From assembly GCA_016937945.1 (NCBI GenBank), contig JAFGVP010000013.1, positions 1 to 64,000 on the forward strand: DNA of 64,000 bases, read 5' to 3'. Below the pieces are notes generated by a model. It did no database searches. It was not told the origin of the DNA and saw only the letters and a list, made by a program, of their open reading frames with translations. Shown piece after piece: positions 11,418 to 35,375 of this stretch. The stretch comes from Pontiellaceae bacterium (lineage in GTDB: Bacteria > Verrucomicrobiota > Kiritimatiellia > Kiritimatiellales > Pontiellaceae). Each line of letters begins with the position of its first letter. Position 1 is the first letter of the stretch. The position numbers were made by a program, and so were the translations under genes.

Positions 11418-11451
11418 GAAAACTGTATCTTTTCAGCCGTTTTGTCTATTC
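11418..11451 (+). promoter_or_regulatory. Operator motif copy A
   Basis: First of four 34-base sites that align without gaps; 22 of 34 positions are identical in all four copies, centred on AGCCGTTT and ending (G/A)TC(C/T)ATT. This copy reads GAAAACTGTATC, then TTTTCAGCCGTTTTGTCTATTC. It lies 110 bases upstream of the secreted protein gene at 11562 and points toward it; a TTGTCA box starts 5 bases after it. Two half-sites resembling TGTAT and TGTCTATT about 20 bases apart would suit a tandem-binding AraC protein. Confidence 0.65.
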
Positions 11452-11561
11452 ACGGGTTGTCAATGAATTGCGACAGTACAGTAGCTGCAACGGCTTGTTG
11501 CCGGGCGAGGCGTGAATAGGGTCTGTTCATTCGGAACAGCCGTTTTACTGGAGGAATAGAG

Positions 11562-13022
11562 ATGATGGGAAAAATAGGTGCAACATTGGTTGTCCTGCTG
11601 GGCTTTGTGAGCCTGGGACTGAGTGATACACGGTTGATTGATGATTTTGAAAGTTACAGTCAGGGAGAAGTATGGCTGGAAACAGAAGACTGGCTGGTCA
11701 CTGCGTCTCAGGAAATTCCGCTTATTGTATCCGACGGCGCAAATCAGTATCAGGAAACTTCCGGCAGTGTGATCAGTCTGGGTGATGCCCAGATGGATGC
11801 CGGAACAACGGGAGAGGTGTTCTTTCGGATCTCGGTCGAATCCGGCCGCACGCTGGACTGCTCCATTGGATTGGCGGATGTTGCTGCTGATCAGTGCACG
11901 GCAACATGGGTCGATTTCGAGGCGTATATCGCGGTTGTCGGCAGCGGTCCGACCTATAGTCTGCGGGCGCGCAGCGGCAACAGCAATGTCTCCCTCGCAA
12001 CGATTAACGCCGATACATGGTACAATATCTGGCTGGATGTGAATCTCGCAAGCTCGACCTATGCAGTCTACTACAGTACGGGATCCGCGAACATCGGTGC
12101 CAAGGGATCTGCGACGAAGCTGGCGGACAATCTTTCTTTCCGGAAAGGATCCGGCAATGCATTGCAGACGTTCAAGGTGCACGGATCGGAGGGGACGGAT
12201 CCAAAGCATGCTGTCTTTCTGGATGACATCTCCGTTGCGTTCAACGATATCATCCCCGCAATCACGGTTTCGCGCAGTCCGGAAACATCCGGCGTTGTTC
12301 CATCTCCGACCATCCAGGCCGTGTTTAAAAATGGGCAGCCCCAGCAGATTAATCCCAACGTGCTGAACATGACGCTGAACGGCGTGGCCCTGAATCCCTC
12401 CTTTACGACGGATGACAAAGGCCAGACTACCGTTAAGGCTTTGGCCGGAAGCTATCTGCCTTCCGGATCGTCCAACCTTGTGCAGCTGGTTGTCGGGACG
12501 GTAAATCCCAATGGATTGATTACAAACGAATGGTCGTTTGTGGTTCAGGATTATGAAACCCTTCCGGCCCGGTATGCGTATGATCTGGGGCTGACTAATC
12601 AGTCCGACCGGGGGTTCTGGTATCGGGATGTGGGGCATTCGACATTAGGAAACGTGCCGGGATCAATTTCTCGGGCCATTGCCCAGATGGCACTCAAGGC
12701 ACCCTATGATGTCGACGACACTTCCGGAGCGGAGCCCTCCGGCGGCTATTTCCTGCTGCCGGGTGACTCGTTAAATACGGATGTGATTAACTTTAATATT
12801 CTGACGACCGTATCCAACACGATGGGCCGGGGTAATTTCTACATTTCGACCAATCTGCCGACCGCCTATAACATCGTCGAAAGCTTGTATCCGGGAATTA
12901 CGAGCAGCGGCGGAATCAATGATTTTTCGTGTGAAACGCTCGGTTTCCTTGAGCTGTATCCCGGGGTCTACACCTTCGGCGTCCGGCACGATGATGGATT
13001 TGTTTTTTACATGGGCGACTAG
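11562..13022 (+). CDS. Secreted protein, N-terminal part, ended by an in-frame TAG
   Basis: Open for 486 codons from an ATG-ATG pair preceded by GAGGA. A signal peptide (IGATLVVLLGFVSLGLS) leads into a domain starting TRLIDDFESYSQGEVW, resembling the LamG/concanavalin-type fold common in such secreted proteins, followed by bacterial Ig-like segments. The frame stops at TAG 13020-13022, directly after HDDGFVFYMGD. The same frame stays open after it for 434 more codons with continuous family-like sequence, so I regard this as the front of one protein of about 921 residues (11562-14327). No catalytic motif is recognised; the position, behind operator A and beside the rhamnose-type genes, suggests a role in polysaccharide binding or breakdown. 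Confidence 0.75.
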   Translation: MMGKIGATLVVLLGFVSLGLSDTRLIDDFESYSQGEVWLETEDWLVTASQEIPLIVSDGANQYQETSGSVISLGDAQMDAGTTGEVFFRISVESGRTLDCSIGLADVAADQCTATWVDFEAYIAVVGSGPTYSLRARSGNSNVSLATINADTWYNIWLDVNLASSTYAVYYSTGSANIGAKGSATKLADNLSFRKGSGNALQTFKVHGSEGTDPKHAVFLDDISVAFNDIIPAITVSRSPETSGVVPSPTIQAVFKNGQPQQINPNVLNMTLNGVALNPSFTTDDKGQTTVKALAGSYLPSGSSNLVQLVVGTVNPNGLITNEWSFVVQDYETLPARYAYDLGLTNQSDRGFWYRDVGHSTLGNVPGSISRAIAQMALKAPYDVDDTSGAEPSGGYFLLPGDSLNTDVINFNILTTVSNTMGRGNFYISTNLPTAYNIVESLYPGITSSGGINDFSCETLGFLELYPGVYTFGVRHDDGFVFYMGD

Positions 13023-14327
13023 CCTAAGGAGTTGAATGCCCCGGAACTCAGCCGGAACAGTGCCTACTCTGCGACGGACACCACCTTCAGCATGGAAATC
13101 ACGGAAGCCGGCCTGTATCCGTTCCGTCTGCTGCAGTTTCAGGGATCCGGCGGAGCCAATCTGGAACTGTTTACGATTGAACCGGACGGCTCCAAGGTTC
13201 TGGTAAACGATTCGGTTCATGGCGGAGTTCGCTCCTGGCGGGCCGAAGCGGGGCTTCGTCCCTATGTGTCATGGATTGATCCCGTAGAGGATACTCTTCT
13301 GACCAATACAAACACCACCGTGACGATTGAACTTCATGATAGCACCCTGATCGTCGACACATCGGCCATCGTTATGAAGGTGAACGGCCAGACCGTTTCC
13401 CCGACGATCAATTATACGGCTCCGATCACGACGATCAGCTATGATTCTCTGGGTGGAGATGATAACGCCATTACCCTGATTTACAGTGCATTGGGAAATG
13501 GAGATCTTTACACCAACAAGTTCAATATCAGTGTGCTCACCCCTTCGATCACCTATGTGGATGCTGTTCCGGGGGCCAAAGGGAATACGACCGTCTGGGA
13601 TGCGGAATCGATGAGTTTCGTGAGCTATTTTCCGCCGGAAAATGTGTCAGGGCAGGGGGGCGATAACGAATGGGAATACGAAACCGACTATGCCAATACC
13701 GCCGATCAACCCGGCTGGCTCGAAGCGAACCGCGAGGGCGCTGAAGACTGTCCTCAGCTTCGCACCCGGGTGGAAGGTCTCGAAAACGGGGTGTACAATG
13801 CATATGTCTACTTCTGGGGGCCCGGCCCGCAAATCGTGAAGATCGGAGCCGCGTTGACGAACAATCCGAGCGGAAGCCTGCCGGTCTACACGCAGGAGCA
13901 CGCCGATGCTTCTGATGCGATGACCAATTCATTCAGCAATACGGTTATCGTGGAAGAGGCCGACCGCAATATGTATCAGGTGGATCTAGGGCTGGTAACC
14001 GTCACGGACGGAATTCTGGATGTCTATATCGACGACGAAGCCAATGGCGGGTTTGACTCCACGGTTTGGTATGACGGCATCGGCTATAAGTATGTTTCGG
14101 CCGGAGGTCCGGAGTATGCACCGGTCATTACATCTATTTCTGTTTCAGGAAGCACGGTCACGCTGTCATGGACGGCTGACGATGCCGGATCCTACACGAT
14201 CGAGCGCAAGAGCTCACTGACAGGAAAGTGGTCTCCCGTCGAAACCGGACTGCCGGCAGGCAATAGCATCCGGAGTGTACCGGCCGGCGGAGGCAGCACG
14301 GAATTCTATCGGATTACGGCTGAATAG
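13023..14327 (+). pseudogene. C-terminal part of the same secreted protein, after the in-frame TAG
   Basis: Continues in the same frame as 11562-13022. Immediately after the stop the text PKELNAPELSRNSAYSATD and FSMEITEAGLYPFRLL carries on the domain interrupted by the TAG. Downstream are Ig-like segments and a C-terminal module, YTIERKSSLTGKWSPVETGL ending TEFYRITAE, which matches the short module common at the ends of secreted proteins in Verrucomicrobia-like bacteria. A TTG at 13032 lies right behind AAGGAG and the next in-frame ATG is at 13092, but neither offers a natural protein start and there is no second signal peptide. Without readthrough or a corrected base, this part would not be exported. 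Confidence 0.7.
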
Positions 14328-14353
14328 TCCGGGCTCAGAAGATTCATCACCGC

Positions 14354-14394
14354 AATGCATCCGGGATCTCGATTTCCTCCCGGATGCATTTTTT
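14354..14394. terminator. Bidirectional terminator
   Basis: A perfect 13-base stem (AATGCATCCGGGA with TCCCGGATGCATT, 11-base loop) followed by a T run on the plus strand and preceded by an A-containing side on the other. It lies between the converging secreted-protein gene and the AraC gene and fits both. Confidence 0.85.
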
Positions 14395-14413
14395 GTATCG
14401 ATTCTATTGGAAC

Positions 14414-15145
14414 TCAGCGGCGGCGATATTCCGATGGGGATTTGCCGGTCACATTCTTGAACATGCGCGAAAAATAATACGGGTTGTCGAATCCGCACAT
14501 TTCAGCAACGCAGGCAACGGTCAGGTCCGGATTCGCCAACAGTTTCTGCGCATTTTCAATGCGCGTCTGGACAATGGTGCGCATGGGAGACTGGCCGGTG
14601 TAATGGACAAACAGGTGCCGCAGGTAATCCTTGCTCACGAAAAGCTGGCCGGCAATGTCCTCGATCGAAAGGTTGCCGGCTTTTTCGTCGATGATATGCA
14701 GTGCGCGCGCAACAATCGCCTGCTTTCTGTCCTGAGGTACGTTTTCCTTGATGGCTCGTTTGACGAGTCCGATAGCAGCCAACAGGTATCCATCGGCAAC
14801 AATCGAATAACCGATCTTCTGCGTGGCCAGCTCATCCATGAGATTCTGTAGGCAGGTTTTAATATCGCCGGTGGAGTCCACCCAGAGCCCCTGCGACGAT
14901 TCAAGTCCACTGCCCGAAATTCCCAGACAGATCGATGTAATCGTTGTCTCCGAAATCTGATTGTGAATCACGTTGGCGGGCATGACGCAGAAGCAGTTGT
15001 TCTGAACGGCATAGGTTTTTTTCTCAATGGTTGTTTCTCCGGATCCTTCTATAAAGTAAACCAGTTCAAGGACTTCGTGGGTGTGGTCTCGTGCCGCGTC
15101 ATTGTCTTTTTCGACACTTGCCTTGAATGCGAATTTCAGCTGCAT
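14414..15145 (-). CDS. AraC-family transcriptional regulator
   Basis: A 243-residue regulator. The N-terminal half looks like a cupin sensor (HTHEVLELVYFIEGSGETTI, then CFCVMPANVIHNQ). The C-terminal half has the two helix-turn-helix units of AraC/XylS: LSIEDIAGQLFVSKDYLRHL and VACVAEMCGFDNPYYFSRMF, ending FKNVTGKSPSEYRRR. It is divergent from the ribokinase operon, and the 261-base space between them contains operator copy B. The simplest reading is that it senses a sugar released by the nearby hydrolases and controls the four motif-bearing transcription units, including perhaps its own; binding is inferred only. Confidence 0.93.
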   Translation of the reverse strand: MQLKFAFKASVEKDNDAARDHTHEVLELVYFIEGSGETTIEKKTYAVQNNCFCVMPANVIHNQISETTITSICLGISGSGLESSQGLWVDSTGDIKTCLQNLMDELATQKIGYSIVADGYLLAAIGLVKRAIKENVPQDRKQAIVARALHIIDEKAGNLSIEDIAGQLFVSKDYLRHLFVHYTGQSPMRTIVQTRIENAQKLLANPDLTVACVAEMCGFDNPYYFSRMFKNVTGKSPSEYRRR

Positions 15146-15258: not shown

Positions 15259-15292
15259 GAAAAGTGTATTTAGTGAGCCGTTTCGTCTATTC
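15259..15292 (+). promoter_or_regulatory. Operator motif copy B
   Basis: Second copy of the 34-base motif (GAAAAGTGTATTTAGT, then GAGCCGTTTCGTCTATTC). It sits in the space between the divergent AraC gene (113 bases to its start) and the ribokinase-led operon (114 bases to its start), pointing toward the operon. Confidence 0.7.
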
Positions 15293-15406
15293 CGGTGCGC
15301 TGGGATAACAGGTAGTTTCTAATTCGAAAATACATTGACGTCCGTTTTTCACGAGCAGGTTCATGCGGACCGACAGGACGCGAAACAGAGATTTTTGGAG
15401 TAGAAA

Positions 15407-16330
15407 ATGAAGCCGATTATTGTCGTAGGAAGTTCAAACACGGATCTGGTGGCGCAGGTTGAACGCCTTCCGGGCGAGGGCGAGACCATCATGGCCCGCG
15501 GCTTTGAGCGTTTTGCCGGCGGTAAAGGAGCCAATCAGGGGGTCGCCGCCGCAAAGGCCGGCACGGCTGTTGCTTTTGCCGGCGCTGTCGGATCCGATGC
15601 GTTCGGACGTGATACGGAGGCGACGCTGGCTGCCTGCGGACTGGATCTGAAATATCTCGAACGCATGAACGGAGCGGCTTCGGGGACCGCCATGATTTCC
15701 GTGGATACGAACGGTCGCAATCAGATTGTGGTGGTTCCGGGCGCCAATGGATTAATCGGTCCGGCGCAAATTGACGCCATCGATTTCTCCTCCTTCTCCA
15801 TTGCTGTTTTTCAGTTGGAAATTCCGCACGAAACCGTCTGGTACGCATTGCATCGGGCTCGCGAAGCGGGGTGCACTACGATCCTGAATCCCGCGCCGGC
15901 CGCCGCTATTCCCGATGCTGTTTTCGGAAATATTGATTACCTGATACCGAATGAGCATGAGCTTGAAATTCTTGCCGGCTGTGCGGGGCCGCTTGAAGAG
16001 AACGCGGATGCTGTCCGAAAACGCGGCGTGGCCAATCTGATCGTAACGCTCGGGGCCGATGGGGCGGTCTGGCTTTCAGACGAACAGTGTGCTGCCGTGC
16101 CGGCGCCGGATGCTCCGGTGGTTGATACGGTGGGTGCCGGGGATTGTGTGGTGGGGGTGTTTGCTGCCTGTCTTGGAAAAGGGTGTTCGGTGGAGGACAG
16201 CCTTAAATATGCCATGGCCGCGGCCACGATTTCCGTGGGGCGGGTTGGTGCACAGGCATCGTATGCATCATGGGATGAAATCAAGGCGTTTGCCCAGGAG
16301 GTATTCGCGGGGGACGTTGCCGTACACTGA
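15407..16330 (+). CDS. rbsK: Ribokinase (PfkB family)
   Basis: A 307-residue cytoplasmic sugar kinase. It opens with the ribokinase signature VVGSSNTDLVAQVERLPGEG and FAGGKGANQGVAAAKAG, and carries the catalytic anion-hole motif DTVGAGDCVVG with Asp246 as the likely base. It phosphorylates ribose or a related pentose at O5; another furanose or deoxysugar substrate is possible. ATG 15407 follows GGAG at 6 bases. It heads a plus-strand operon with a nucleoside-hydrolase-like gene 32 bases downstream, so released ribose could be captured, although the rest of the operon is about rhamnose-type polysaccharide. Confidence 0.9.
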   Translation: MKPIIVVGSSNTDLVAQVERLPGEGETIMARGFERFAGGKGANQGVAAAKAGTAVAFAGAVGSDAFGRDTEATLAACGLDLKYLERMNGAASGTAMISVDTNGRNQIVVVPGANGLIGPAQIDAIDFSSFSIAVFQLEIPHETVWYALHRAREAGCTTILNPAPAAAIPDAVFGNIDYLIPNEHELEILAGCAGPLEENADAVRKRGVANLIVTLGADGAVWLSDEQCAAVPAPDAPVVDTVGAGDCVVGVFAACLGKGCSVEDSLKYAMAAATISVGRVGAQASYASWDEIKAFAQEVFAGDVAVH

Positions 16331-16362
16331 TGTGTGCGGGCTTTGAGTGAGAAGGACAAGTT

Positions 16363-17343
16363 GTGATTAAGCCAAATATTATATTCGATACAGACATGGG
16401 AAACGATGTGGATGATGCGCTCGCGCAGGTCCTTCTGCACGCATTCGGCCGGGATGGTTTTGCCGATTTTGCGGTGGCACTCGTGAATAAGGGAGCCCGG
16501 TTGGCGCCGGCATTTGTTGATCTGATCAACCGGGCCTATGGACGCGATGATATTGAGGTCGGCTGGTGTGCTGACAGTCCGACACCTTCCGAAGGCGTTT
16601 TTCTTCGCCCGGTATTGGAAGTCGGTGCTGAAGAGCTTCCCTATGATCCGGATCATAAAAACTGGCCGGATGCCGTCAGCCTGCTGCGTCGGCGCCTGAC
16701 GGAGATTCCGGATGGCAGCGGGGTCTATGTTTCAATCGGTTTCTGCACGATTCTTGCCCGTTTTCTGGAATCCGGTCCGGATGAAATTTCGCCGCTCGAC
16801 GGAGTGCAGCTGGCCCGGCGCAAGATCGGATTCGCTTCGCTGATGGCCGGAAATTTTGATCCGGAGGTTCTGGCCAATCCGACGCCCGAAAACGTGGAAC
16901 ATAACATTGTGAACGACATTCCTTCGGCAAAACGTGCATTGGAACTGTGTCCGGTGCCGATGGTCTTCAGCGGCTTTGAGGTCGGATCGGCGTGCTGCTA
17001 TCCGCACGAATCGGTCACCGGCGAAATGGATCATGGCGGGTTTAATCCGCTGCGCATGGCTTACGACCTCTATTGCGGTCTGGAACATGACCGCCCGCTA
17101 TGGGATCTGACGAGTCTGCTGTATGCCGTTTTTCCGGATGCCGACTGGTTTGATGTTTCGGAACCGGGTGTGGTGGGTGTTACTGCACGCGGTCATACCA
17201 CATTCCGGCCTCATCCGGCGGGTCGGCACCACTATCTGATCCTGAAAAAAGATCGGATGGATGAGATGATTTCGCTCTTCAGGGATGGGTGTTCCCGGCC
17301 CTGCAGTTTTCCGGCCCTGGCGGGACAGGAGACGAACAGTTGA
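16363..17343 (+). CDS. Nucleoside hydrolase-like protein
   Basis: A 326-residue protein started by GTG 16363 with AAGGA 7 bases upstream. It has the calcium-binding aspartate cluster of inosine-uridine-preferring nucleoside hydrolases in the variant form DTDMGNDVDDALA (Asp9, 11, 15, 17, 18) and, later, LVNKGARLAPAFVDLINRAY and the C-terminal DLTSLLYAVFPD block. The family hydrolyses N-ribosides to base plus ribose. No signal peptide is seen, so it acts in the cytoplasm. Pairing with a ribokinase fits ribose salvage. Its place in an operon of rhamnosidases and a sulfatase is odd and leaves open a role on another glycoside. Confidence 0.85.
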   Translation: MIKPNIIFDTDMGNDVDDALAQVLLHAFGRDGFADFAVALVNKGARLAPAFVDLINRAYGRDDIEVGWCADSPTPSEGVFLRPVLEVGAEELPYDPDHKNWPDAVSLLRRRLTEIPDGSGVYVSIGFCTILARFLESGPDEISPLDGVQLARRKIGFASLMAGNFDPEVLANPTPENVEHNIVNDIPSAKRALELCPVPMVFSGFEVGSACCYPHESVTGEMDHGGFNPLRMAYDLYCGLEHDRPLWDLTSLLYAVFPDADWFDVSEPGVVGVTARGHTTFRPHPAGRHHYLILKKDRMDEMISLFRDGCSRPCSFPALAGQETNS

Positions 17344-17378
17344 TTTTCAGTAAGAAAAACGGGTAATTTGGAGGCACC

Positions 17379-19550
17379 ATGCGGATCTGTACTACAGGAC
17401 TTTTTTTGTGCACCGGACTGTTGGCGACGGCTTGTACGGCCGGGACGCTCGAAAACGATTTCCGGAATCCGCCGGCGGAATATCGCCCGATGCCGGTCGA
17501 GCATTCCGTGCCGCTGCGCATGGAGCATCCGGTGAAGCGACTTGAAACGCTGCGGGCCGGCGGTTATGTGATGGATGCCGGCGGCGATAAAACCCCGTCC
17601 GGTTCCGACAAGGTTGGAGAGGAAACCTTCATCAATTATACCTACCTGCAGCTGCCTCAGAATTTCGAAAAGATGAAGGCGCTGATTCAGCGGTTCAAAG
17701 CCGAACGCCGTCCGGTCTGGATCTACGATGAATATGCCTACCCCAGCGGATCGGCCGGCGGCCTGACTTTTGCCGACGGGCACGATGACTGTGCGGCGCA
17801 AGTGGTCAGTTTTCGTCAGCTTTCGGCCGGTACGACCATAGAGCTGAAACCGGGGGCTGAAGTGCTGGCCTGCGTGGCACTGCCGATGAATGAAGGCGTG
17901 GCGGATCTGTCGAACGCCAAAGACCTGACGAAGCCTGTACGGACAGGTGCGCCGGTGCCTGAGCTGGATTCGGGCTGGGTGATCTGCCTGCTGGAGCGAT
18001 ATGCCGCAGACACATGGAAACATCACAACATGGGACGCCGCAACCTGAACGTGATGGATCGTGCGGCGGTACAACGCTTCATGGAGGTCACGCACTATGC
18101 CTATGCCAAACAGCTGGGACCGGTGCTGAATGATGTGGATGCTTTCTTTACCGACGAGCCGCAGTTCAGCAGCGCCGAATTCTGGGGCCGTTCAGGTCGC
18201 GCCGAGGCCGATCCCATGGTGCAGTGGACTGACGAACTGATTCCGGCGTTTAAGGAGAGCAAGGGCTATGATCTGGTCCCGATGATGCCGGCACTCTTTA
18301 TGGATGTCGGTCCTGAAACGGCGCGGTATCGCTATGATTTCTATGATGTACACAGCGATCTCATGGCGCAGAACTATTTCGGCCAGATCGGCGACTGGTG
18401 CCATTCGTATGGAATCCAGTCGACCGGCCACCTGCTGCTGGAGGAGTCGCTGCTGTTCCATGTCATGTTCAGTGGAAGCGCCTTCAAAAACTGGGCGTTG
18501 CAGGACCTGCCCGGCATGGACCTGCTCGGTGCGCGGGCGTATCGCAGCATGCCGTTTATCTGGGAACCGAAGACCATGCCGATCCGGGAGGACCTTTCCT
18601 GTAAAATGGTTTCGTCGGTGGCGCATGTGCAGGGGAAACCGGGCGTCTTTTCCGAGAGCTTTGCCACGGCAAACAAGGCCACGCTGCGCGACGTATTGGG
18701 TGCGGCGGGCTGGCAGTACAGCGAAGGGATCACGCATCTGGTGACCTATACCATTCAGGGCACGCTTCCCGCCGAGGAATATGCCCGGTTCTGCGACTAT
18801 TCGAGTCGTCTTGCTCTGTTTGCGCGGCGCGGAAAACCGGTTTCGCGCGTGGCGGTTCTGGTGCCTGAAAGCTCCGTCTGGTCGGTTTATAATCCCCCGG
18901 GCGGCGGAGGGTTCGATCGCTATTTCAGCGACAATCCGGAAGCGGTTTCCGTCGAGACCGGATTCCGGCGCACCTGCGAAACCCTGCTGTCGAACCAGAT
19001 TCAGTTTGAGTGCGTGAGCGAAGCCCTGCTGGCCGAAGCATCGGTGGAAAAGAATCAGCTGCACGTCGGCGTGATGAACTTTGATCTTCTGGTTGTGCCG
19101 GAGGCCCGTTTCATGCCGACTGCCGTGATGGCGAAGGTTCAAGACTTTATCGCTTCCGGAGGGCGCGTGAGTTTTGTGGGGGCGTTGCCGCAGCAGTCGG
19201 ATCGGTCCGGCGCCGTTGCCGATATCGTGAAGCTGCTGGTGAAGCAATCCTCGAAGGTGCGACATGATGACGAGCTACCGCTTGCCTGGATTGAAAAAAC
19301 TGTAAATGCTCCGACCCGCTGGGATGGCGATTCGGCGGTTCGCATGCAGATAAAGCAGGATGACGGGGAACAGGTTGTCATCCTGAGCAATCCTTCTGCC
19401 GAACCTGTCCGTGGACGATTGAAGGTGCGTTCAAGAGGAACCCTCACATTGTGGGATCCGGAAACGGGGGAACACCGAATACTGAAGGGGCGGGATTCGA
19501 TCATTGAACTGAATCCGCAGAGCGCATGCATTGTTACGTTGGCTGATTAG
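17379..19550 (+). CDS. Secreted GH106-like glycoside hydrolase (putative alpha-L-rhamnosidase)
   Basis: A 723-residue protein with a signal peptide (CTTGLFLCTGLLATACTAG); the cysteine makes a lipoprotein possible but the box is imperfect. Blocks such as RPVWIYDEYAYPSGSAGG, DAFFTDEPQFSSAEFWG, IQSTGHLLLEESLLFHV and KPGVFSESFATANKATLRDV resemble the GH106 alpha-L-rhamnosidase group and its relatives: a TIM-barrel with Glu/Asp-rich loops, then a Ig-like tail. It is shorter than classical GH106 enzymes of over 1000 residues, so it may lack accessory domains or belong to a sister family. It lies 35 bases after the nucleoside-hydrolase gene and before a sugar symporter, in the same operon. Confidence 0.65.
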   Translation: MRICTTGLFLCTGLLATACTAGTLENDFRNPPAEYRPMPVEHSVPLRMEHPVKRLETLRAGGYVMDAGGDKTPSGSDKVGEETFINYTYLQLPQNFEKMKALIQRFKAERRPVWIYDEYAYPSGSAGGLTFADGHDDCAAQVVSFRQLSAGTTIELKPGAEVLACVALPMNEGVADLSNAKDLTKPVRTGAPVPELDSGWVICLLERYAADTWKHHNMGRRNLNVMDRAAVQRFMEVTHYAYAKQLGPVLNDVDAFFTDEPQFSSAEFWGRSGRAEADPMVQWTDELIPAFKESKGYDLVPMMPALFMDVGPETARYRYDFYDVHSDLMAQNYFGQIGDWCHSYGIQSTGHLLLEESLLFHVMFSGSAFKNWALQDLPGMDLLGARAYRSMPFIWEPKTMPIREDLSCKMVSSVAHVQGKPGVFSESFATANKATLRDVLGAAGWQYSEGITHLVTYTIQGTLPAEEYARFCDYSSRLALFARRGKPVSRVAVLVPESSVWSVYNPPGGGGFDRYFSDNPEAVSVETGFRRTCETLLSNQIQFECVSEALLAEASVEKNQLHVGVMNFDLLVVPEARFMPTAVMAKVQDFIASGGRVSFVGALPQQSDRSGAVADIVKLLVKQSSKVRHDDELPLAWIEKTVNAPTRWDGDSAVRMQIKQDDGEQVVILSNPSAEPVRGRLKVRSRGTLTLWDPETGEHRILKGRDSIIELNPQSACIVTLAD

Positions 19551-19595
19551 CGGTTTGCATTTTCAGGGCGGCAGCCCGCGGGGGAAGGAAACAAA

Positions 19596-21041: not shown

Positions 21042-21064
21042 TCGAATCTATCTGAAAGAATGAA

Positions 21065-22480: not shown

Positions 22481-24744
22481 TGCGTTGTTCCGGCATCCGC
22501 GAAGCGCGTCCGGTCTGGCCGCAGGGACTTGAGTCCGAGAGGAATATTCATGTCGGATTCCGGGCTGTGTTTGATATCCGGGGTGATGCGCCGGTTTTGC
22601 TTCGGATGGCGGGTTCGACGATTTATCGGGTGTTTCTCAACGGAGCCATGATTCACCATGGTCCGGCCCGCGGGCCGCACGGGTTTTACCGGATGGATGC
22701 GCTGAATCTTTCGAGTGCTGTGAAACCCGGCGCCAACTTGTTGGCGATCGAGGTGGTTGGTTATAACTGCAACAGTTTTGCCTATCTCAACCAGACGTCG
22801 TTTCTTCAGGCTGAGCTGGAAGTTAACGAACAGGTTGTTGCGGCAACGGGCCGGGCCGGATTTTCCTCGCTGCTGCTGCCCGAACGAATTCAGCGGGTGG
22901 AACGCTACAGTTTCCAGCGCCCGTTCATGGAAGCCTATCGGCTGACTCCGGAATCAGATGTCTGGCGGTGGAGCATCAATGCATCGTATGATGCAACGGA
23001 ATGTTCGGAGCAGCCGGATAAGGTGCTGCTGCCGCGCGGCGTGGCGCTACCGGCGTTGGAGAAGAGAACTGCGAAAGCGACGCCCCGTTCCGGATTGGTT
23101 GAATTCAATCAGCCGGCGGCCGATGCCGCCGCCTATTGGTGGATGACGGAACAACGCCGCGAAGAACTGAAATCCTTCCGTCCGGAGGCGTTTGAACTCG
23201 ATGCGCTCCAGCTGAGCCGTGCCTGCCCGATGAAGCCGGAAGCGCCGGGCCGGATTCTGGATCTTGGCATCAACCTGACCGGTTTTATCCGGTTGCAGGT
23301 GTTCTGCGCCCGTCCGGTAAAATTGGTGGTATTTTTTGATGAAGTCTTGGTGGAGGACGATATCGATCCGGCACGTAATACGACGTTGAACCTGATCTAC
23401 TATGAGCTGCAACCCGGTACGTATGCGCTGGAGAGTATGGAACCTTACACCTTCCGTTATCTGAAGCCGGTTGTGCTGGAAGGCAATCCTGTTATTGCGC
23501 AGGCCGGAATCCGGGAGTATGCCCATGCCGGAACTGTTCAGGCTGAATTCAGCTGTGCAGATCCGGAGCTGATGAAACTGTTTGAGGCCGGGCGCCAGAC
23601 CTTCCGTCAGAATGCGCTGGATATCTATATGGATTGTCCGGGGCGCGAGCGCGCCGGCTGGCTGTGCGACAGCTTTTTCACGGGGCGCGTGGAGCCGCTG
23701 CTGTGCGGCGATTCGCGGATTGAACACAACTTTCTCGAAAACTATCTTCTGCCGGAACGGTTTGCCGGTATTCCGGAGGGCATGCTGCCGATGTGCTATC
23801 CGGCGGAGCATCCCGACGGCGTCTTTATTCCGCAGTGGGCGATGTGGTTTGTGCTGGAGCTGGAAGAGTATCTGAAGCGAACGGGTGACCGTAGCCTGCT
23901 GGATCGCGCCGGGAGAAAGCTGGTCCGACTGCACGATTATTTCGCGACGTTTGAAAACAACGATGGCCTTCTCGAAAATCTGCCGGGATGGAATTTTATT
24001 GAATGGTCGAAAGCCAACGAACTGACGGACGGGATCAGCTATCCGACCAATATGCTTTATGCCCGCATGCTGGAAGCCATGGGCCGTCTGCTGGATGACG
24101 ATACGTTGCTGAATAAAGCGCGGGGCATCCATGCTGTGGTGCGCCGTCAGGCGTTCGATGGAACCTTCTTTGCAGATCACGCCGTGTGCGATGATAATGG
24201 AATTCCGCAACGGACCGGCGAATCTACCGAGGTGTGTCAGTACTATGCGTTTTTCTGTGGGACGGCGACGCCGGAAACGTATCCGGACCTGTGGCAGACG
24301 CTGCTGACAGAGTTTGGGCCGGCGCGCAATCCGACGGCTGTGCACGAGCGGCTGCATCCGGCCAATGCCTTCATCGGCTATTTCCTGCGTATGGAACTGC
24401 TGTCCCGTCAGGGCGAAACCGCCCGGCTGATGCAGGAAATGAAAGACTATTTCCTCGGCATGGCCGAACGCACCGGAACGCTGTGGGAACATTGCGATGT
24501 GCGGGCCAGCTGTAATCATGGTTTTGCGTCGCATCTCTGTGTGCATCTGTTTCGCGATGTTCTCGGGGTGCATTGTATTGACCGAGCCAATAAAACGGTC
24601 GAGGTGTCGGTGCCGGCGCATGGGCCGGAGTCGTGCGGCGGAACGATTCCGTTGCCGGACGGATTGCTCCGCATCAGGTGGTCGCGGGGCGGCGCGCCGC
24701 AGATTTTCCTGCCGGACGGATGGCAGTTGAAACAAACGATTTAA
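22477..24744 (+). CDS. GH78 alpha-L-rhamnosidase
   Basis: A 755-residue enzyme that removes terminal alpha-L-rhamnose. It has an N-terminal beta-sandwich region (residues 1-300) and the (alpha/alpha)6 barrel from about residue 350, marked by DCPGRERAGWLCDSFFTGRV (the GH78 acidic motif) and GWNFIEWSKANEL (the likely base Glu). There is no signal peptide; together with the coupled sulfatase this suggests intracellular trimming after import. Its ATG overlaps the sulfatase stop. It is followed after 26 bases by the GH2 gene. Confidence 0.92.
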   Translation: MMRCSGIREARPVWPQGLESERNIHVGFRAVFDIRGDAPVLLRMAGSTIYRVFLNGAMIHHGPARGPHGFYRMDALNLSSAVKPGANLLAIEVVGYNCNSFAYLNQTSFLQAELEVNEQVVAATGRAGFSSLLLPERIQRVERYSFQRPFMEAYRLTPESDVWRWSINASYDATECSEQPDKVLLPRGVALPALEKRTAKATPRSGLVEFNQPAADAAAYWWMTEQRREELKSFRPEAFELDALQLSRACPMKPEAPGRILDLGINLTGFIRLQVFCARPVKLVVFFDEVLVEDDIDPARNTTLNLIYYELQPGTYALESMEPYTFRYLKPVVLEGNPVIAQAGIREYAHAGTVQAEFSCADPELMKLFEAGRQTFRQNALDIYMDCPGRERAGWLCDSFFTGRVEPLLCGDSRIEHNFLENYLLPERFAGIPEGMLPMCYPAEHPDGVFIPQWAMWFVLELEEYLKRTGDRSLLDRAGRKLVRLHDYFATFENNDGLLENLPGWNFIEWSKANELTDGISYPTNMLYARMLEAMGRLLDDDTLLNKARGIHAVVRRQAFDGTFFADHAVCDDNGIPQRTGESTEVCQYYAFFCGTATPETYPDLWQTLLTEFGPARNPTAVHERLHPANAFIGYFLRMELLSRQGETARLMQEMKDYFLGMAERTGTLWEHCDVRASCNHGFASHLCVHLFRDVLGVHCIDRANKTVEVSVPAHGPESCGGTIPLPDGLLRIRWSRGGAPQIFLPDGWQLKQTI

Positions 24745-24770
24745 TTGATTGAATACAGGATAGGGACAGG

Positions 24771-27428
24771 ATGAATAAACGACTGATGGGAATGGTGGTG
24801 TTGGGGGTTTCTTGGATCTGTTCCTTCGGTTTCGGCGCGAATGAGCGTCTCCGGATTACTGCGGAACAACCCGATTTCTCCGATGCAGTCGTGGAAGGAT
24901 CCAACCTGTCGATTTCGGAGGAATATCTACTGCAGCGTTCTGATGACCTGATGTCCGGCCATTGGCAGAATGTCTGGTCACCGGTTTCTTCAGTAACCAA
25001 TGCGCACTGGCGTGTGGCGCCGGATCGAGCCATGTCGTTCTATCGCCTCGTTCCGAATATGGTTCCGGCGAAGAACCATCCATGGAGTGCGGAGACGATC
25101 AATGATGACTGGTTTTACCTGGCCAGCGATACGGAAACGCTGCCGACGCTCGGCGATGCCGCCTATTCACCAATCACCCTTCCGCACACCTGGAATGCGA
25201 ACGATACGCTTGTGGTGGGGAACTATCGCCGCGCGTCATCGTGGTATCGCAAGAATCTTGAGGTCACGCCGGAGATGCTTGACCAGCGGGTCTATCTTCG
25301 TTTCGGGGCGGCGGGGCAGCGGGCAAAGGTGTTTGTCAATGGCTTGGGGCAGAGCGTTCTATATCATAACGGTGGATACAGTGCCTTTGTCTGCGAGCTG
25401 ACCGGCAGGCTCAGCGAGGGCAGCAACCGGATCGATGTCTGGGTCGATAACACCCGGGTGCCCGGAATTATTCCGCAATCGGGCGACTTTAATTTTTATG
25501 GAGGGCTGTATCGATCGGTGCAGCTGATCGTGGCGCCGGAGATCTCCATTTCGCGTAACTATCGCGGCGGTCCCGGCGTACGCGTCTGGAGCGAAGCGGT
25601 GAGCGAGGATTCGTCGGATCTGCAGGTCCGCGTCCGGCTCGATAACGGCAGCACGGTTTCGGCGGCGTTGACGGTTGCTGCACGTTTGCTTGATTCTGCC
25701 GGACGGGTGGTTTCGAGCGGAACGAATGCCGTCACAATCGCAGGAAATGCCGGACAATCGGTTGATGTGGACATGCCCGATGTGGAGCAACCGGGTCTCT
25801 GGAGCCCTGAGCATCCGGAGCTTTATACACTCGTTGTCACGTTGCTGCAGGATGGATTGATTCTGGATTCGTCTTCAGTCAAACATGGATTCCGCTGGTT
25901 TGAGTTTACGGCCCGGAAGGGATTCTTCCTAAACGGTCGATCGTATAAACTTCATGGTGCCAATCGACATCAGGATAAACGCGGCGTGGGGAATGCCCTG
26001 GATTTGCAACAGCATTATGAAGACCTGATGCACATGAAAGAGGCGGGCTGCAACTGGGTCCGGCTTGCGCACTATCAGCAGGACGACTATGTCCTGCAGC
26101 TCTGTGACGAGCTGGGCCTGTTGGTGTGGGAAGAAATTCCTTATGTGAATGAAGGCGATGTCGCGTCGATTCAGCCGGCCATGGAGTCGATGATGCGGGA
26201 GATGATCGAGCAGCATTTCAATCATCCTTCGGTTGTGGTGTGGGGCATCGGTAACGAAGTGATGAGCCTCCAGACGCCAACGGAAGACTATGATGCGATT
26301 ACCGGGCTGGTTTCAGACATGGACGCGTTGGTGCATGCCGAAGATCCAATTCGTAAATCGGCGTTTGTTTCCGGAGATCTGAATCTGTCATCCCGGCAGG
26401 GTATTGTTACTCTGGTCGATGTGTTTGGTTACAATCTGTACCGAGGCTGGTATGCCAATGAATATACTTCGCTGACCACGCGGCTGAACGAGTTGCATGC
26501 CATGAAACCTGATACGCCGCTGGTCCTGACCGAATTCGGTGCCGGATCGGATTTGACGATTCATTCGGACCTTCCGGTTATGCAGGACTTCAGCATTGAA
26601 TATCAGAACGACTTTCTTGAGTCGCACCTGCAGCAACTGAAGGCGCCGGCACTGAACTGGTTGTGCGGTTCCACCTGGTGGGCGTTCTATGATTTCGGAT
26701 CTTCCTATCGCGGCGACTCGATTCCACGAGTGAACCAGAAGGGTGTGATGACCTTTGATCGTCGCGAAACCAAGGATGCGTTTTACCTGATGAAATCCTA
26801 TTGGAGCGACGAGCCGGTCGTGCATATCGAGTCAGAAACCTGGTCGAATCGCGCCGGACTTGCCGAAAAAAGCGTTCGGATTTTCTCCAACATGGATATG
26901 GTGGAACTCTTCCTGAACGGCGTTTCGCAGGGAGTACAAAGCAGCGGGTTTATCTGGCCGGTTGAACTCGTTGCCGGGGACAACGCACTCGAAGCCATCG
27001 GTACAACGGGGCTGATCGAAAAACGCCATGCCGTCACCGTGGAATATACGCCGACGTATCTGGCCAGTGCCACAGCGGAAGAGAGCGGAAATTTGGCTGG
27101 TAATGCGGTGGACGGCGACCCCTCCACCCGCTGGGCCGCACAGGGCGATCAGAGCCTTACAATCGACCTGCTCGAAACCCGTTCCGTCAGCGGTCTGGAA
27201 ATCAGTTTCTACAACGGGTCCAGCCGCAACTATTATCTGGAAATCCTCGGGTCGTCGGACGGAAGCAACTGGACTTCGCTGTTTGACGGCGCCTCCTCAG
27301 GAGTGAATATCGAAACCTTCTCCTTCGGGGTTCCCCGGTCGCTTCGTTATATCCGCATCGATGGAGCGGGCAGCAGTGTCAGCGACTGGAACAGCTACTA
27401 TGAAACCACTCCCTTGCTCGCACCGTAA
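24771..27428 (+). CDS. Secreted GH2 glycoside hydrolase with F5/8 C-like C-terminal domain
   Basis: An 885-residue protein, last gene of the operon, with a signal peptide (MGMVVLGVSWICSFGFG). Residues 45-105 form a short module, QRSDDLMSGHWQNVWSP ending AMSFYRLVPN, normally found at C-termini of secreted proteins in this group. The GH2 sandwich, Ig-like and TIM-barrel domains follow; the acid/base is Glu496 (VWGIGNEVM) and the nucleophile Glu588 (LTEFGAGSD). Residues about 765-885 look like a discoidin/F5-8 type C (CBM32-like) carbohydrate-binding domain (AVDGDPSTRWAAQGDQSL). GH2 members include beta-galactosidases, glucuronidases and others, so the exact sugar is open. ATG 24771 follows AGGGACAGG. 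Confidence 0.9.
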   Translation: MNKRLMGMVVLGVSWICSFGFGANERLRITAEQPDFSDAVVEGSNLSISEEYLLQRSDDLMSGHWQNVWSPVSSVTNAHWRVAPDRAMSFYRLVPNMVPAKNHPWSAETINDDWFYLASDTETLPTLGDAAYSPITLPHTWNANDTLVVGNYRRASSWYRKNLEVTPEMLDQRVYLRFGAAGQRAKVFVNGLGQSVLYHNGGYSAFVCELTGRLSEGSNRIDVWVDNTRVPGIIPQSGDFNFYGGLYRSVQLIVAPEISISRNYRGGPGVRVWSEAVSEDSSDLQVRVRLDNGSTVSAALTVAARLLDSAGRVVSSGTNAVTIAGNAGQSVDVDMPDVEQPGLWSPEHPELYTLVVTLLQDGLILDSSSVKHGFRWFEFTARKGFFLNGRSYKLHGANRHQDKRGVGNALDLQQHYEDLMHMKEAGCNWVRLAHYQQDDYVLQLCDELGLLVWEEIPYVNEGDVASIQPAMESMMREMIEQHFNHPSVVVWGIGNEVMSLQTPTEDYDAITGLVSDMDALVHAEDPIRKSAFVSGDLNLSSRQGIVTLVDVFGYNLYRGWYANEYTSLTTRLNELHAMKPDTPLVLTEFGAGSDLTIHSDLPVMQDFSIEYQNDFLESHLQQLKAPALNWLCGSTWWAFYDFGSSYRGDSIPRVNQKGVMTFDRRETKDAFYLMKSYWSDEPVVHIESETWSNRAGLAEKSVRIFSNMDMVELFLNGVSQGVQSSGFIWPVELVAGDNALEAIGTTGLIEKRHAVTVEYTPTYLASATAEESGNLAGNAVDGDPSTRWAAQGDQSLTIDLLETRSVSGLEISFYNGSSRNYYLEILGSSDGSNWTSLFDGASSGVNIETFSFGVPRSLRYIRIDGAGSSVSDWNSYYETTPLLAP

Positions 27429-27690: not shown

Positions 27691-27894
27691 ATGGAGCATT
27701 CACTCAAAGTCATCATCGCCGCGATTCTGCATTCCCTGTTTGGTCTCGTTCTGATCTGGCAGGGACTCTCCGGAAATGTAGTAAAACCCCCGGACGGACG
27801 GGCGGTTTTAGCGAGATGGGTGTATGTTGTGTTTGGCCTCGGGACCCTGATCCTGCCGTTGTCCTATGTGGCCGTTCTGCTGCAGATAAAATAG
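27691..27894 (+). CDS. Small two-helix membrane protein
   Basis: A 67-residue open frame beginning MEHSLKVIIAAILHSLFG with a good ribosome site (GATGAGGAA) just upstream. Two hydrophobic stretches (residues about 5-27 and 40-64, WVYVVFGLGTLILPLSYV) predict two membrane helices with a short charged loop KPPDGRAVLARW. No family is recognised. It stands alone, 262 bases after the GH2 gene and before a repeat pair, so its role is unknown. Confidence 0.6.
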   Translation: MEHSLKVIIAAILHSLFGLVLIWQGLSGNVVKPPDGRAVLARWVYVVFGLGTLILPLSYVAVLLQIK

Positions 27895-27910
27895 GCCGCT
27901 CTTGCGCGCT

Positions 27911-27961
27911 GCAGGCGGGACGCCTGCGATACGGGCGCTGTACCGCAGGCGTCCCGCCTGC
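27911..27961. repeat. REP-like inverted repeat
   Basis: Two 22-base arms, GCAGGCGGGACGCCTGCGATAC and the complement of GTACCGCAGGCGTCCCGCCTGC, facing each other with one mismatch; each arm is itself nearly palindromic. A single arm variant recurs at 43091-43112, so this is a dispersed element. Confidence 0.75.
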
Positions 27962-27985
27962 CTTGGTTTGCATGTAATACGCAAA

Positions 27986-28011
27986 AGGCGGTGTGAACAA
28001 ACACACCGCCT
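27986..28011 (-). terminator. Terminator of the PEP-CTERM gene
   Basis: A 9-base perfect stem (AGGCGGTGT / ACACCGCCT) with an 8-base loop, followed on the minus strand by TTTT. It lies 30 bases after the PEP-CTERM gene stop. Confidence 0.85.
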
Positions 28012-28040
28012 CAGGGTTATTCTGAATGTATGCGGAAGGA

Positions 28041-28892
28041 TTACATCCGGAAGCGCCGGATGAGCAACATGCTGACCGCGGTCATGCCGATCAGTCCGAG
28101 CGTCGCCGGTTCCGGAATAGACAGCGTTGTTCCGTCTCCGGAAACCGTGAAAGTCGAATCAAACAGAGCGCCGTCAATGGCTGCACCGTTGAGCGTCCAT
28201 CCGCCACCGGTCACTTCTGTTTTCCAATCTTCGCCGCTGAATGTTCCCACTTCCCAGGAGCCGCTCCATCCTGAGAGAATGTCAAGGCTTCCGGACATGT
28301 CCAGTGCCGTTGCCGAAGAGGCGCTCAAAAGCGTAGCACCTCCGCCGACGCTGCTGGTGGACCCAGACTGAAAACGGAAGGTTCCGGCAGTGATTTGTCC
28401 GCCGAGGATGTTGATTGAACCGGTCTGCGCTCCGACATTATTCCCGACGGCCGCGCCGGACGAATGTATGCCGCCGTTGATGGTGATGATACCTGTCGTT
28501 GCCTCGAAATCGTCATTGGCAGTCACGGCGCTTCCGTTGTTGAGGATGATTGTTCCGCCCGAAGCAAATACGTCGTCTCCAACGGTGAGTGTTGCGTTGT
28601 TTACAATCAATGTGCCCCCGCCGTTGACCGGAGTGTCTTCTCCGATCGCAACCGTGGCTCCGCCCTCGATGGTGACGGTGGCGCCGGCCATCCATGTATC
28701 GTTCTGGTTGATACTGCTCATGGCGGCATCGGTATTGACGAGGCCATTGTTTCCTGCGCCGGGAAGTCCGTTATTCCAACTGGCCGCATTGCGCATGTCA
28801 CCTCCCGCACCACCGGTATAGATTGTGTCCGCTCCGGCAACCGTGGCAAGGCACAACCCCGCAACGACGCATGTCCATCTACCTTTATTCAT
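28041..28892 (-). CDS. PEP-CTERM sorted surface protein
   Basis: A 283-residue exported protein. ATG 28892 (MNKGRWTCVVAGLCLATVAG) has a strong AAGGAG site; the 9 upstream codons in the open frame are ignored. After the signal peptide comes a stretch of short Gly/Asn/Thr-rich beta-repeats (such as GGTLIVNNATLTVGDDVFAS and GGTIILNNGSAVTANDDFEA), typical of beta-helical autotransporter-like passenger folds. The C-terminus, SIPEPATLGLIGMTAVSMLL then IRRFRM, is a classic PEP-CTERM sorting signal recognised by exosortase. No exosortase gene is in the window. Operator copy C lies 185 bases upstream, linking it to the polysaccharide regulon. Confidence 0.9.
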   Translation of the reverse strand: MNKGRWTCVVAGLCLATVAGADTIYTGGAGGDMRNAASWNNGLPGAGNNGLVNTDAAMSSINQNDTWMAGATVTIEGGATVAIGEDTPVNGGGTLIVNNATLTVGDDVFASGGTIILNNGSAVTANDDFEATTGIITINGGIHSSGAAVGNNVGAQTGSINILGGQITAGTFRFQSGSTSSVGGGATLLSASSATALDMSGSLDILSGWSGSWEVGTFSGEDWKTEVTGGGWTLNGAAIDGALFDSTFTVSGDGTTLSIPEPATLGLIGMTAVSMLLIRRFRM

Positions 28893-29077
28893 TACTCTTC
28901 TCCTTGTTTGTTGTTCCAATATCCGGTCCTCGTCTTACGGAGGCCGAAGAGCATAAAAACGATGTACCGTCGGTGCTTTGCATCGGAGCTGCAGATGTCG
29001 CGCCTGCAAACTCCAAACAGCATAAAACCAAGGCCCGTTTGTACTCTGATAATGTACTTGGAGGGGAACTTGGGAGA

Positions 29078-29111
29078 CAATGGACGAAACGGCTCACTAA
29101 ATGCACATTTC
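29078..29111 (-). promoter_or_regulatory. Operator motif copy C
   Basis: Third copy of the 34-base motif on the minus strand (GAAATGTGCATTTAGT, then GAGCCGTTTCGTCCATTG). It points toward the PEP-CTERM gene 185 bases downstream. A TTGTCT box overlaps its end and TACATT follows 18 bases later, a possible promoter. Confidence 0.65.
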
Positions 29112-29155
29112 AGAAGTTGCCGTGCAGAAGCGGGTTGCAGAACGCATGAACCTTC

Positions 29156-29187
29156 AAAAAAAAGCAGCAACCGCATGGGTTGCTGCT
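29156..29187 (-). terminator. Terminator of the GH2 gene
   Basis: A 10-base perfect stem (AGCAGCAACC / GGTTGCTGCT) with a 5-base loop, followed on the minus strand by eight T. It lies 29 bases after the stop of the GH2 gene at 29216. Confidence 0.9.
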
Positions 29188-29215
29188 CTCTATGATTCGG
29201 GTTTCCGGTCGCTCG

Positions 29216-31300
29216 TTAACGGTTCCAGACGATGCTGTCTGTATAGGTTGCCCCGTCCTTAACGGCAGTCGCTTTGACGGGGGTTCCGTCGGCAATATCC
29301 AGACCTTCCCATCGACAGATCATGATGTCGGAGGGGGTCTGTTTTCCGATGGATTTCCCATCGACCAGCAGCTCGACGGATTCGGCATTGGAGTACACCT
29401 TGACTTCAACGTTTTCGTTGGAACGGTTCATGGCGCGGCGGCTGGTGATGTGGACCACTGGTGTGTCGGTCCAGTTGGCCTTGTAGAAGAAGAAGGAATC
29501 CTTTTTGATTTTCCGGTCGTAGGTGACCATTCCCTTCAGGTTGATGCCGTGGCGCTCTCCGAATTCGCGATGGTCAGAGGCAAAGTCGAACATGTTCCAG
29601 ATCCAGGTGCCCCAGAGATAATCGCGGCTCTTGAAAGCGTTCCAGTAAACTTCATGGTAGAGGCAGTGATATTCCTCCGGCATGAACGGCTCGCCGCCGC
29701 CTTTGGGTTTCGGCGGGTTTTCCTGGTGATGGAACACATTGCCGCCGGCGCCGTATTCGCTGATTCCGACCATGTTGTCGGGATGATTTTTGTGCCACTG
29801 GTCGAGCCATTCTCCGATGTGCACCAGCTCGTGGGAATACCAGCCGTAGTATTTGTTAAAGGCCACCAGATCGGTGGCAAAGTTGAGCGGGCTGTCATCG
29901 CCGTGGCAGCTGCCATAGGTGGACGGGCGGGTGGTATCTTCCTCCTTGATGACTTCACTTATTTCAGTCAACAGTTCCAGCGGGTTGGGCTTCTTGATGT
30001 GCAGTTCGTTACCGGCACTCCAGGTGACGATGGAAGGATGGTTGTAGTTCTGTCGGATCAGTTCGCGCATCTGCTGCTTTGCGTTATCGTAGAAGTCGTC
30101 GCTGACAATCACCGTATCTACGAGGGGAATTTCCGCCCAGACAACCATGCCGTATTTGTCGCACAGGTCATACCAGTATTGATCCTGCTGGTAGTGGGCC
30201 ACACGAATCGTGTTGGCGCCCATTTCGCGGATCAGGGAAAAATCCTCTTCCATGTCTGCATCGCTGATGGCCCAACCCTTGTTTTCACGGTCCTGATGGC
30301 GGTTTACGCCGCGAAGTTTGTAAGGGCGCCCATTCAGTAAAAATCCTTTATCGGGATCCATTGAGAAAAACCGGAAGCCGACCGGCTGGCTGACCATATC
30401 CACGATTTTCTTGTCGGCAATCACCTGTACATAGGCGCGATAGAGATAGGGATCTGCGAGGCCGTTCCATAGGTGGGGCTTTTTCACCTTCATGGATTGA
30501 ACAAAGTCATATGATCCGCCGTTGGGGAATATCTGCATGGTCTTTGTGAGGACCTCGATAACCTTGTCGTCTGCATCGACGAGGATTGTCCGGCAGGTCA
30601 CATTATGCGCGGTGTCATAACGGTTGATCACCTTGCAGCGGATTTCCAGATCGGCGGAATCAGAGGAAACCCGGGTCTGCTTCAGATAGACGCCGGAGGA
30701 ACCATAGTCATCGGCATCGATGGCGAGCTTGTCGGTCACGAGCAGGTGGACATCGCGGTACACGCCTCCAAAAAAGGTGAAATCGGCGCTGATCGGGGCG
30801 TACGGCCCTTTGCTTCGTCCGAAGTTTTCGACCTTGATGGCAATTACGTTTTCCCGACCGACCTTGATCTGGTCGGTACAGTTAAAGCGGAATCCGGCAT
30901 AGCCGCCCTTGTGCGTGCCGAGGTGTTCGCCGTTCACATAGACATCGGTAATCAGGTTGGCACCGTCCAGCTGTACCCAGAACTCCCTGCCGGCATCGCT
31001 TCCGTCGACCATGATCGTCCTGCGGTACCAGCTCGGCCCGGTCCAGAAGTCGTTCTTTCCGTTCTGGCCGTCGAGTGCATTCCAGGTGTGCGGGATATCC
31101 ACTCTTTCCCAGTCCGCGTCGGAAAATGCAAACGCCTCCGCCCCGGCGACATCCCCTTTGTGGAACTGCCACCCCTCATTGATAGAGATCAGTTTCCGCG
31201 GGCTTTCAGGTTCCTTATTGAGCGATGCACAACCCTGGCATAGCGGTAGAAACAGCAGGATCGAGGCGAGGACATGTTTCATTCTTGTTTTCTTTTTCAT
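29216..31300 (-). CDS. Secreted GH2 beta-galactosidase-like enzyme
   Basis: A 694-residue GH2 enzyme, shorter than LacZ. The N-terminus MKKKTRMKHVLASILLFLPL then CQGCASLN is an export signal; the GC pair may be a lipidation site though the box is imperfect. The sandwich domain has RVDIPHTWNALDGQN and SWYRRTI; the barrel has RGVNRHQD, acid/base Glu432 (WSAGNELH) and nucleophile Glu515 (GISEYGAGG). It resembles the middle part of the GH2 protein at 24771 more than the LacZ-type enzyme at 35768. ATG 31300 follows GGAAG. Operator copy D is 139 bases upstream and a terminator follows, so it is a single-gene unit. Confidence 0.92.
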   Translation of the reverse strand: MKKKTRMKHVLASILLFLPLCQGCASLNKEPESPRKLISINEGWQFHKGDVAGAEAFAFSDADWERVDIPHTWNALDGQNGKNDFWTGPSWYRRTIMVDGSDAGREFWVQLDGANLITDVYVNGEHLGTHKGGYAGFRFNCTDQIKVGRENVIAIKVENFGRSKGPYAPISADFTFFGGVYRDVHLLVTDKLAIDADDYGSSGVYLKQTRVSSDSADLEIRCKVINRYDTAHNVTCRTILVDADDKVIEVLTKTMQIFPNGGSYDFVQSMKVKKPHLWNGLADPYLYRAYVQVIADKKIVDMVSQPVGFRFFSMDPDKGFLLNGRPYKLRGVNRHQDRENKGWAISDADMEEDFSLIREMGANTIRVAHYQQDQYWYDLCDKYGMVVWAEIPLVDTVIVSDDFYDNAKQQMRELIRQNYNHPSIVTWSAGNELHIKKPNPLELLTEISEVIKEEDTTRPSTYGSCHGDDSPLNFATDLVAFNKYYGWYSHELVHIGEWLDQWHKNHPDNMVGISEYGAGGNVFHHQENPPKPKGGGEPFMPEEYHCLYHEVYWNAFKSRDYLWGTWIWNMFDFASDHREFGERHGINLKGMVTYDRKIKKDSFFFYKANWTDTPVVHITSRRAMNRSNENVEVKVYSNAESVELLVDGKSIGKQTPSDIMICRWEGLDIADGTPVKATAVKDGATYTDSIVWNR

Positions 31301-31439
31301 TCATACACTTCCATGTTGCGGAGGTGCTTCTCTGGAAGCATCTCGTTTCTGTATTCAGCGGAACGTTTTTAATCGGGATATCTCACCGGACATTCTATAA
31401 AAACGATTATCCCAGTATGGCAATCGGAAGCGATTTGCT

Positions 31440-31473
31440 GAATGGATAAAACGGCTGAATGGATGCAGTTTTC
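31440..31473 (-). promoter_or_regulatory. Operator motif copy D
   Basis: Fourth copy of the 34-base motif on the minus strand (GAAAACTGCATCCATT, then CAGCCGTTTTATCCATTC), pointing toward the GH2 gene at 31300. A possible promoter follows: TTGCCA, 18 bases, TATAGA. Confidence 0.65.

Positions 31474-33761: not shown

Positions 33762-35375
<1,614 letters not shown>

Follow-up and report, generated by a model that had tools for sequence, protein, structure and literature searches.

In a 64,000-nucleotide stretch from the genome of a Pontiellaceae bacterium (contig JAFGVP010000013.1, positions 1 to 64,000; hereafter the window), four copies of a 34-base element precede the genes for a secreted protein, a ribokinase/rhamnosidase operon, a PEP-CTERM protein and a GH2 glycoside hydrolase. 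We assign a probability of roughly 0.85 to these sites being activator operators of the AraC/XylS-family protein predicted at 14414-15145. The comparative data give good support to a regulon in which scattered polysaccharide-degrading genes would be governed by a known, ordinary type of bacterial switch.

Candidate Operator Copies in the Window

The four sites are invariant at 22 of their 34 positions and are distributed with two copies on each strand. Copy 1 (11418-11451, plus strand) lies 110 bases 5' of the ATG (11562) of the secreted protein gene (11562-14327, plus). Copy 2 (15259-15292, plus) is located between the divergently oriented AraC (minus) and ribokinase (plus) genes, in a gap of 261 bases, at 113 bases from the start of the former and 114 bases from the start of the latter. 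On the minus strand, copy 3 (29078-29111) is found 185 bases 5' of the likely start ATG 28892 of the PEP-CTERM gene (28041-28919, minus), or 158 bases from an upstream TTG, and copy 4 (31440-31473) lies 139 bases 5' of ATG 31300 of the GH2 gene (29216-31300, minus). All four are intergenic and face their gene, in a window with a non-coding share of only ~13%. A first-pass annotation of the sequence had proposed these sites, their 22 shared positions, their orientation and distance of 110-185 bases to the start codons, the placement of one copy in the gap shared with the AraC gene, and the four targets. Our recount reproduces the coordinates, strands and shared positions exactly, and the distances and genes agree with what was proposed.

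When up to three mismatches are allowed, the consensus matches only these four places in the window and has no match in 100 dinucleotide shuffles. As the consensus was derived from the sites themselves, a pattern-free control was also run. The three most similar pairs of 34-mers in the window (30, 29 and 28 of 34 identical, both strands considered) are pairs among the four sites, and in six Markov-shuffled windows the best pair reached at most 27 of 34.

Architecture of the Candidate Operator and Predicted Promoters

Conservation was assessed on an alignment of 20 sites, seven from this genome and 13 from others. It is confined to the 34 bases and a -10 region, plus weak conservation at -2/-1 and at the first base beyond the site, and the flanks are random. 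Because conservation drops to about zero in these flanks, the operator is not part of a larger dispersed repeat, a possibility that the first-pass annotation had raised and that the 20 sites rule out.

Self-similarity of the sites is highest at a 21-bp lag (0.45-0.48), indicating a direct repeat of two half-sites. At this lag, T7, A10 and T11 of the upstream half coincide with T28, A31 and T32 of the downstream half and are invariant in both. C-1 and G1 likewise match C20 and G22, and the footprint is therefore probably ~37 bp rather than 34 bp. The upstream half-site is the weaker one (C-n-GAAAA-n-TGYAT), while the stronger downstream half-site, AGCCGTTTYRTCYAT, reads AGC-N7-TCYAT. A palindromic, LacI-like operator was considered and rejected: the best palindrome score of 0.48 comes mainly from the pairing of AAAA and TTTT runs, and the direct repeat is preferred since it accounts for the invariant bases in both halves.

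The main conserved feature downstream of the site is an A at +22 and a T at +26, corresponding to a TAnnnT hexamer that starts at the nearly fixed position +21/22. The enrichment of -10-like hexamers at +21 was reached by 1 of 2000 shuffles for the seven sites of this genome and by none of 2000 for the 13 others. Sites that stand outside this statistic conform to it: the AraC-proximal site of the related genome G005 with TATCTT at +21, and sites in the genomes G321 (TATAGT at +22) and G266 (TATCTT at +20); the site in G275 has TATAAT at +18. With a fixed -10 and a 17-bp spacer, the -35 hexamer would start at base 32 of the site, so that the terminal TTC/TTG is shared with it. Computed from this -10 register, the operator is predicted to abut or overlap the -35 of the promoter.

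By the same register, the predicted promoter of copy 1 spans 11449-11477 (plus), with a -35 of TTCACG (11449-11454) and a weak -10 of GACAGT (11472-11477), for which TACAGT at 11477-11482 is an alternative. That of copy 2 would span 15290-15318 (plus; TTCCGG at 15290-15295, TAGTTT at 15313-15318, 17-bp spacer). On the minus strand, the candidates are 29051-29080 for copy 3 (TTGTCT at 29080-29075, TACATT at 29056-29051) and 31414-31442 for copy 4 (TTCAGC at 31442-31437, CATACT at 31419-31414, 17-bp spacer).

The Candidate Regulator and Its Co-occurrence with the Site

The proposed binding protein (14414-15145, minus; 243 residues) was assigned to its family with Pfam. It combines a C-terminal double helix-turn-helix domain (PF12833, HTH_18, 3.4e-22, residues 165-243; HTH_AraC also matched) with an N-terminal cupin-type ligand-binding domain (AraC_binding 3.4e-8, Cupin_2 7.1e-7). 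The DNA-binding domain aligns with that of E. coli AraC (2k9s, E 1.1e-11). The best NCBIfam match is AraC, yet its 71 bits stay below the cut-off of 208 for arabinose AraC (PRK10572), and the RhaS/RhaR equivalogs reach 43-46 bits against cut-offs of 288-525. Judged by these equivalog cut-offs, the protein is a member of the AraC/XylS family that is neither arabinose AraC nor RhaS/RhaR.

Full-length orthologs of this regulator occur in three of the 43 genomes of the order, namely this genome, G005 (68%) and G032 (three paralogs: 68, 58 and 54%). When a sequence-only model of 15 sites is run over the same 43 genomes, these three and no others have matches at E<1e-3. Among 388 genomes of the phylum, a sample from which G005 is absent, matches at E<=0.005 are restricted to this genome and G032, the only two sampled genomes with close orthologs. 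A second, non-circular model was built from the four window sites alone. In G032 the AraC locus (2.44-2.49 of 3.88 Mb) contains all three of its best matches, and in G005 its sole match (E 0.24) is 1.7 kb away from the AraC gene. Distant relatives of the regulator in G321, G266 and G275 (37-41% identity) also have a recognisable copy adjoining their gene, which in G266 and G275 faces a gene of the nucleoside-hydrolase family. In total, the site adjoins the gene of this AraC subfamily in five species; no copy was found beside the distant relative in G366. Scanning contigs with an alignment of the AraC proteins gave, in addition, only the record of G005 itself and proteins from Paenibacillus, Cohnella and Bacteroidales, which resemble the regulator mainly in the DNA-binding domain. 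The earlier suggestion that the AraC protein is the natural candidate for binding thus gains support from co-occurrence, from clustering of sites near its gene and from the fit of the direct-repeat half-sites, all of which point to this protein as the probable binder.

Further Sites in the Genome and in Relatives

The genome of 4.28 Mb was scanned with patterns and sequence-only covariance models. A looser core pattern retrieved a fifth strong copy (contig C144, 5641-5674, minus) and three weak matches, while a reversed control pattern gave none. The fifth site is placed in a divergent gap together with a weaker partner on the opposite strand (5683-5716). One side of this gap carries a CBM6 protein followed by a full GH78 alpha-L-rhamnosidase, and the other a protein without Pfam match. 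Another weaker site, on contig C68, is found 5' of a CBM6/GH2 gene. The first-pass annotation had anticipated genomic matches ahead of carbohydrate genes, as found on C144 and C68, and the scatter of many random matches that it had named as the contrary outcome was not seen, with five strong copies in the whole genome. A match on contig C53 with three mismatches did not reach the matrix threshold of 9 and was dismissed as noise. At L016:2535-5573 (minus), two consecutive related proteins face the fifth operator and feature an N-terminal membrane segment and a proline/lysine-rich stretch; the one of them that was tested has no Pfam match.

In G032, ten sites spread across 31 kb in a single orientation, all gene-facing, and a site at the ribokinase brings the total to ~11. 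The genes that they face encode a sulfatase, a GH3 enzyme, a nucleoside-hydrolase-like protein, a GH106 enzyme and secreted repeat proteins, and two of the sites lie in gaps divergent from AraC paralogs. A run of nucleoside-hydrolase-like, GH106-like and MFS_2-like transporter genes corresponds to window 16363-21041 and is preceded by two sites. The ribokinase gene, counterpart of window 15407-16330, is located ~730 kb from AraC and has retained its site. Two operator flavours, GAAA...ATTS and AAAAAGT...CATGG, are present at the G032 loci L019 and L020, and each of the three AraC paralogs may prefer one flavour. In G005, sites are found 5' of an operon with a PEP-CTERM protein and a nucleoside-hydrolase-like gene, and 5' of a second gene; the spacing in the AraC-adjacent variant is 22 bp. 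The nucleoside-hydrolase-like protein, too, has close orthologs (64-71%) in G005 and G032 only.

Proposed Mechanism and Alternatives

The fixed orientation and distance to the -10, the weak -35 and the AraC-type protein argue for activation by a promoter-contacting dimer. Such a dimer would bind the two direct-repeat half-sites 21 bp apart, that is, two helical turns along one face of the DNA. Its downstream half-site would end on the -35, with the last three bases (TTC/TTG) opening the hexamer, followed by the 17-bp spacer and the TAnnnT -10. Upon sensing a sugar freed from the target polysaccharide, bound AraC would draw RNA polymerase to the weak promoters. Genes for surface proteins, hydrolases, transport and sugar kinases at dispersed loci would be turned on jointly. 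The sites, their arrangement, the promoter spacing and the co-occurrence with AraC genes are observed, whereas we infer that the protein at 14414-15145 binds them, that it activates and does not repress, and that the inducer is an oligo- or monosaccharide.

Several observations weigh against this assignment. The genome encodes 12 AraC-family proteins, and the co-occurrence is based on three genomes only, one of them from another family. Two genomes without an AraC ortholog contain a match, G028 in a coding region (E 0.0018) and G024 5' of a dehydrogenase-like gene (E 0.006); both are attributed to chance or to a different regulator, and the G028 match, given its coding position and the lack of an ortholog, was put down to chance. 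The third AraC paralog of G032 (2484884-2485606) has no adjoining site. Within the operator itself, the AGC box of the downstream half is poorly preserved in the first half-site, and copies 1 and 2 have weak -10 matches.

The sites might instead be bound by another protein, for example among the 11 remaining members of the AraC family, with the neighbouring AraC as a target or bystander. AraC-type sites of paralogs can resemble each other, and G032 has two flavours alongside its three paralogs. We regard this reading as unlikely, as the site follows this AraC subfamily across ~400 genomes and adjoins its gene even at the low identities of the distant relatives. Assuming the same AraC as binder, its main role might be repression, or a dual one with looping between sites when the inducer is absent. 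E. coli AraC represses through looping in the absence of arabinose (PMC4760080), the site in the divergent gap could restrain the araC gene as well, and sites on both strands are present in the C144 gap and in one gap of G032. The operator nevertheless abuts rather than covers the core promoter, and its near-fixed distance and orientation next to a weak -35 represent the usual geometry of an activator, which makes a mainly repressing or dual role equally improbable. The recurrence of the motif in fixed orientation 5' of genes could in principle reflect an alternative-sigma promoter, a leader RNA element or a dispersed repeat, all of them highly improbable: boxes 21 bp apart are unusual for a -35/-10 pair and are followed by an ordinary -10, the site lies upstream of the predicted transcription start and hence outside the RNA, with nothing found by an Rfam scan at the operator sites, and neither the absence of conservation beyond site and -10 nor the five strong copies suit a repeat.

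Target Genes, Inducer and Neighbours

The operon behind copy 2 (15407-27428, plus) is presumed to be co-transcribed because its gaps are short and its strand common. It comprises, all on the plus strand, genes for a ribokinase (15407-16330), a nucleoside-hydrolase-like protein (16363-17343), a GH106 enzyme (17379-19550), an MFS_2/GPH transporter (19596-21041), a sulfatase (21065-22480), a GH78-type enzyme (22477-24744) and a GH2 enzyme (24771-27428). The PEP-CTERM protein behind copy 3 ends in the tail PEPATLGLIGMTAVSMLLIRRFRM. The reading frame of the secreted protein contains a single in-frame TAG (13020-13022): the gene may have decayed, the codon may be an assembly or sequencing error, or it may be read through.

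The most conserved targets (nucleoside-hydrolase-like protein, ribokinase, GPH-type transporter, rhamnosidases) suggest that the inducer may be a sugar released from a furanoside or from a sulfated polysaccharide that contains rhamnose. Rhamnosidases are present among the annotated targets and rhamnose isomerase, kinase and aldolase are not; the rest of the genome was not searched for these. More speculatively, and with considerable doubt, the AraC subfamily and its motif could be old in the phylum and built around the nucleoside-hydrolase-fold enzyme and ribokinase. The conserved core would then be a pathway that frees and phosphorylates a furanose, and different species would have added sulfatases, rhamnosidases and PEP-CTERM surface proteins to it. 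The operator would mark an unrecognised polysaccharide-utilisation regulon over unlinked loci, with a furanose, e.g., ribose or a ribose-like sugar, as inducer.

Adjoining the regulon, a gene without operator copy (7368-9839, plus) encodes a fusion of GH28 and GH88 domains, which suggests that pectin or rhamnogalacturonan is broken down. The region 481-6279 (minus), also without operator copy, encodes a DUF2126 amidoligase/transglutaminase fusion, an Alpha-E protein and a circularly permuted ATP-grasp protein. A thiamine pyrophosphate riboswitch (Rfam RF00059, 63.8 bits) is located at 33573-33666 (plus), directly 5' of thiC (33765-35375).

Comparison with Known Systems

A literature search of incomplete coverage found no operator motif for polysaccharide degradation in Kiritimatiellales, and its transcriptional control seems undescribed so far. 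The motif and its candidate regulator predict which unlinked genes share one substrate. They would tie the GH78/CBM6 operon on C144, the GH2/CBM6 gene on C68 and the PEP-CTERM proteins to the AraC-linked sulfatase/rhamnosidase operon, and they provide a concrete DNA target and promoter geometry for testing.

In the araI1-araI2 pair of E. coli, araI1 is the promoter-distal and stronger half, whereas here the stronger half is promoter-proximal. The two operators share an AGC-N7-TCCAT-type half-site of the same internal spacing, a direct repeat and a promoter-adjacent position; the E. coli half-site is TAGC-N7-TCCATA (PMC4514859). The regulators align in their DNA-binding domains, while their targets differ. 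In the arabinose operon, binding to araI2 directly recruits RNA polymerase (PMC4760080), and direct repeats with 21-bp periodicity have been described for AraC-family sugar regulators (PMC3870299).

The AraC-family rhamnose regulators (RhaR of Bacteroides, Bacillales and Enterococcus; RhaS/RhaR of E. coli) resemble the present system in having rhamnosidase genes in their regulon. They differ in that no rhamnose isomerase, kinase or aldolase is among the targets found here, and in the scores far below the RhaS/RhaR cut-offs. RhaR motifs are reported to be unique to each group, and E. coli RhaS/RhaR use inverted repeats (PMC3870299). MtlR of Pseudomonas fluorescens, at PmtlE, recognises two similar 15-bp blocks that contain direct repeats and extend over at least 37 bp upstream of the -35 (PMC4514859). 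As an AraC/XylS activator with a direct-repeat operator it parallels the proposed system, from which it differs in sequence, inducer (mannitol) and targets.

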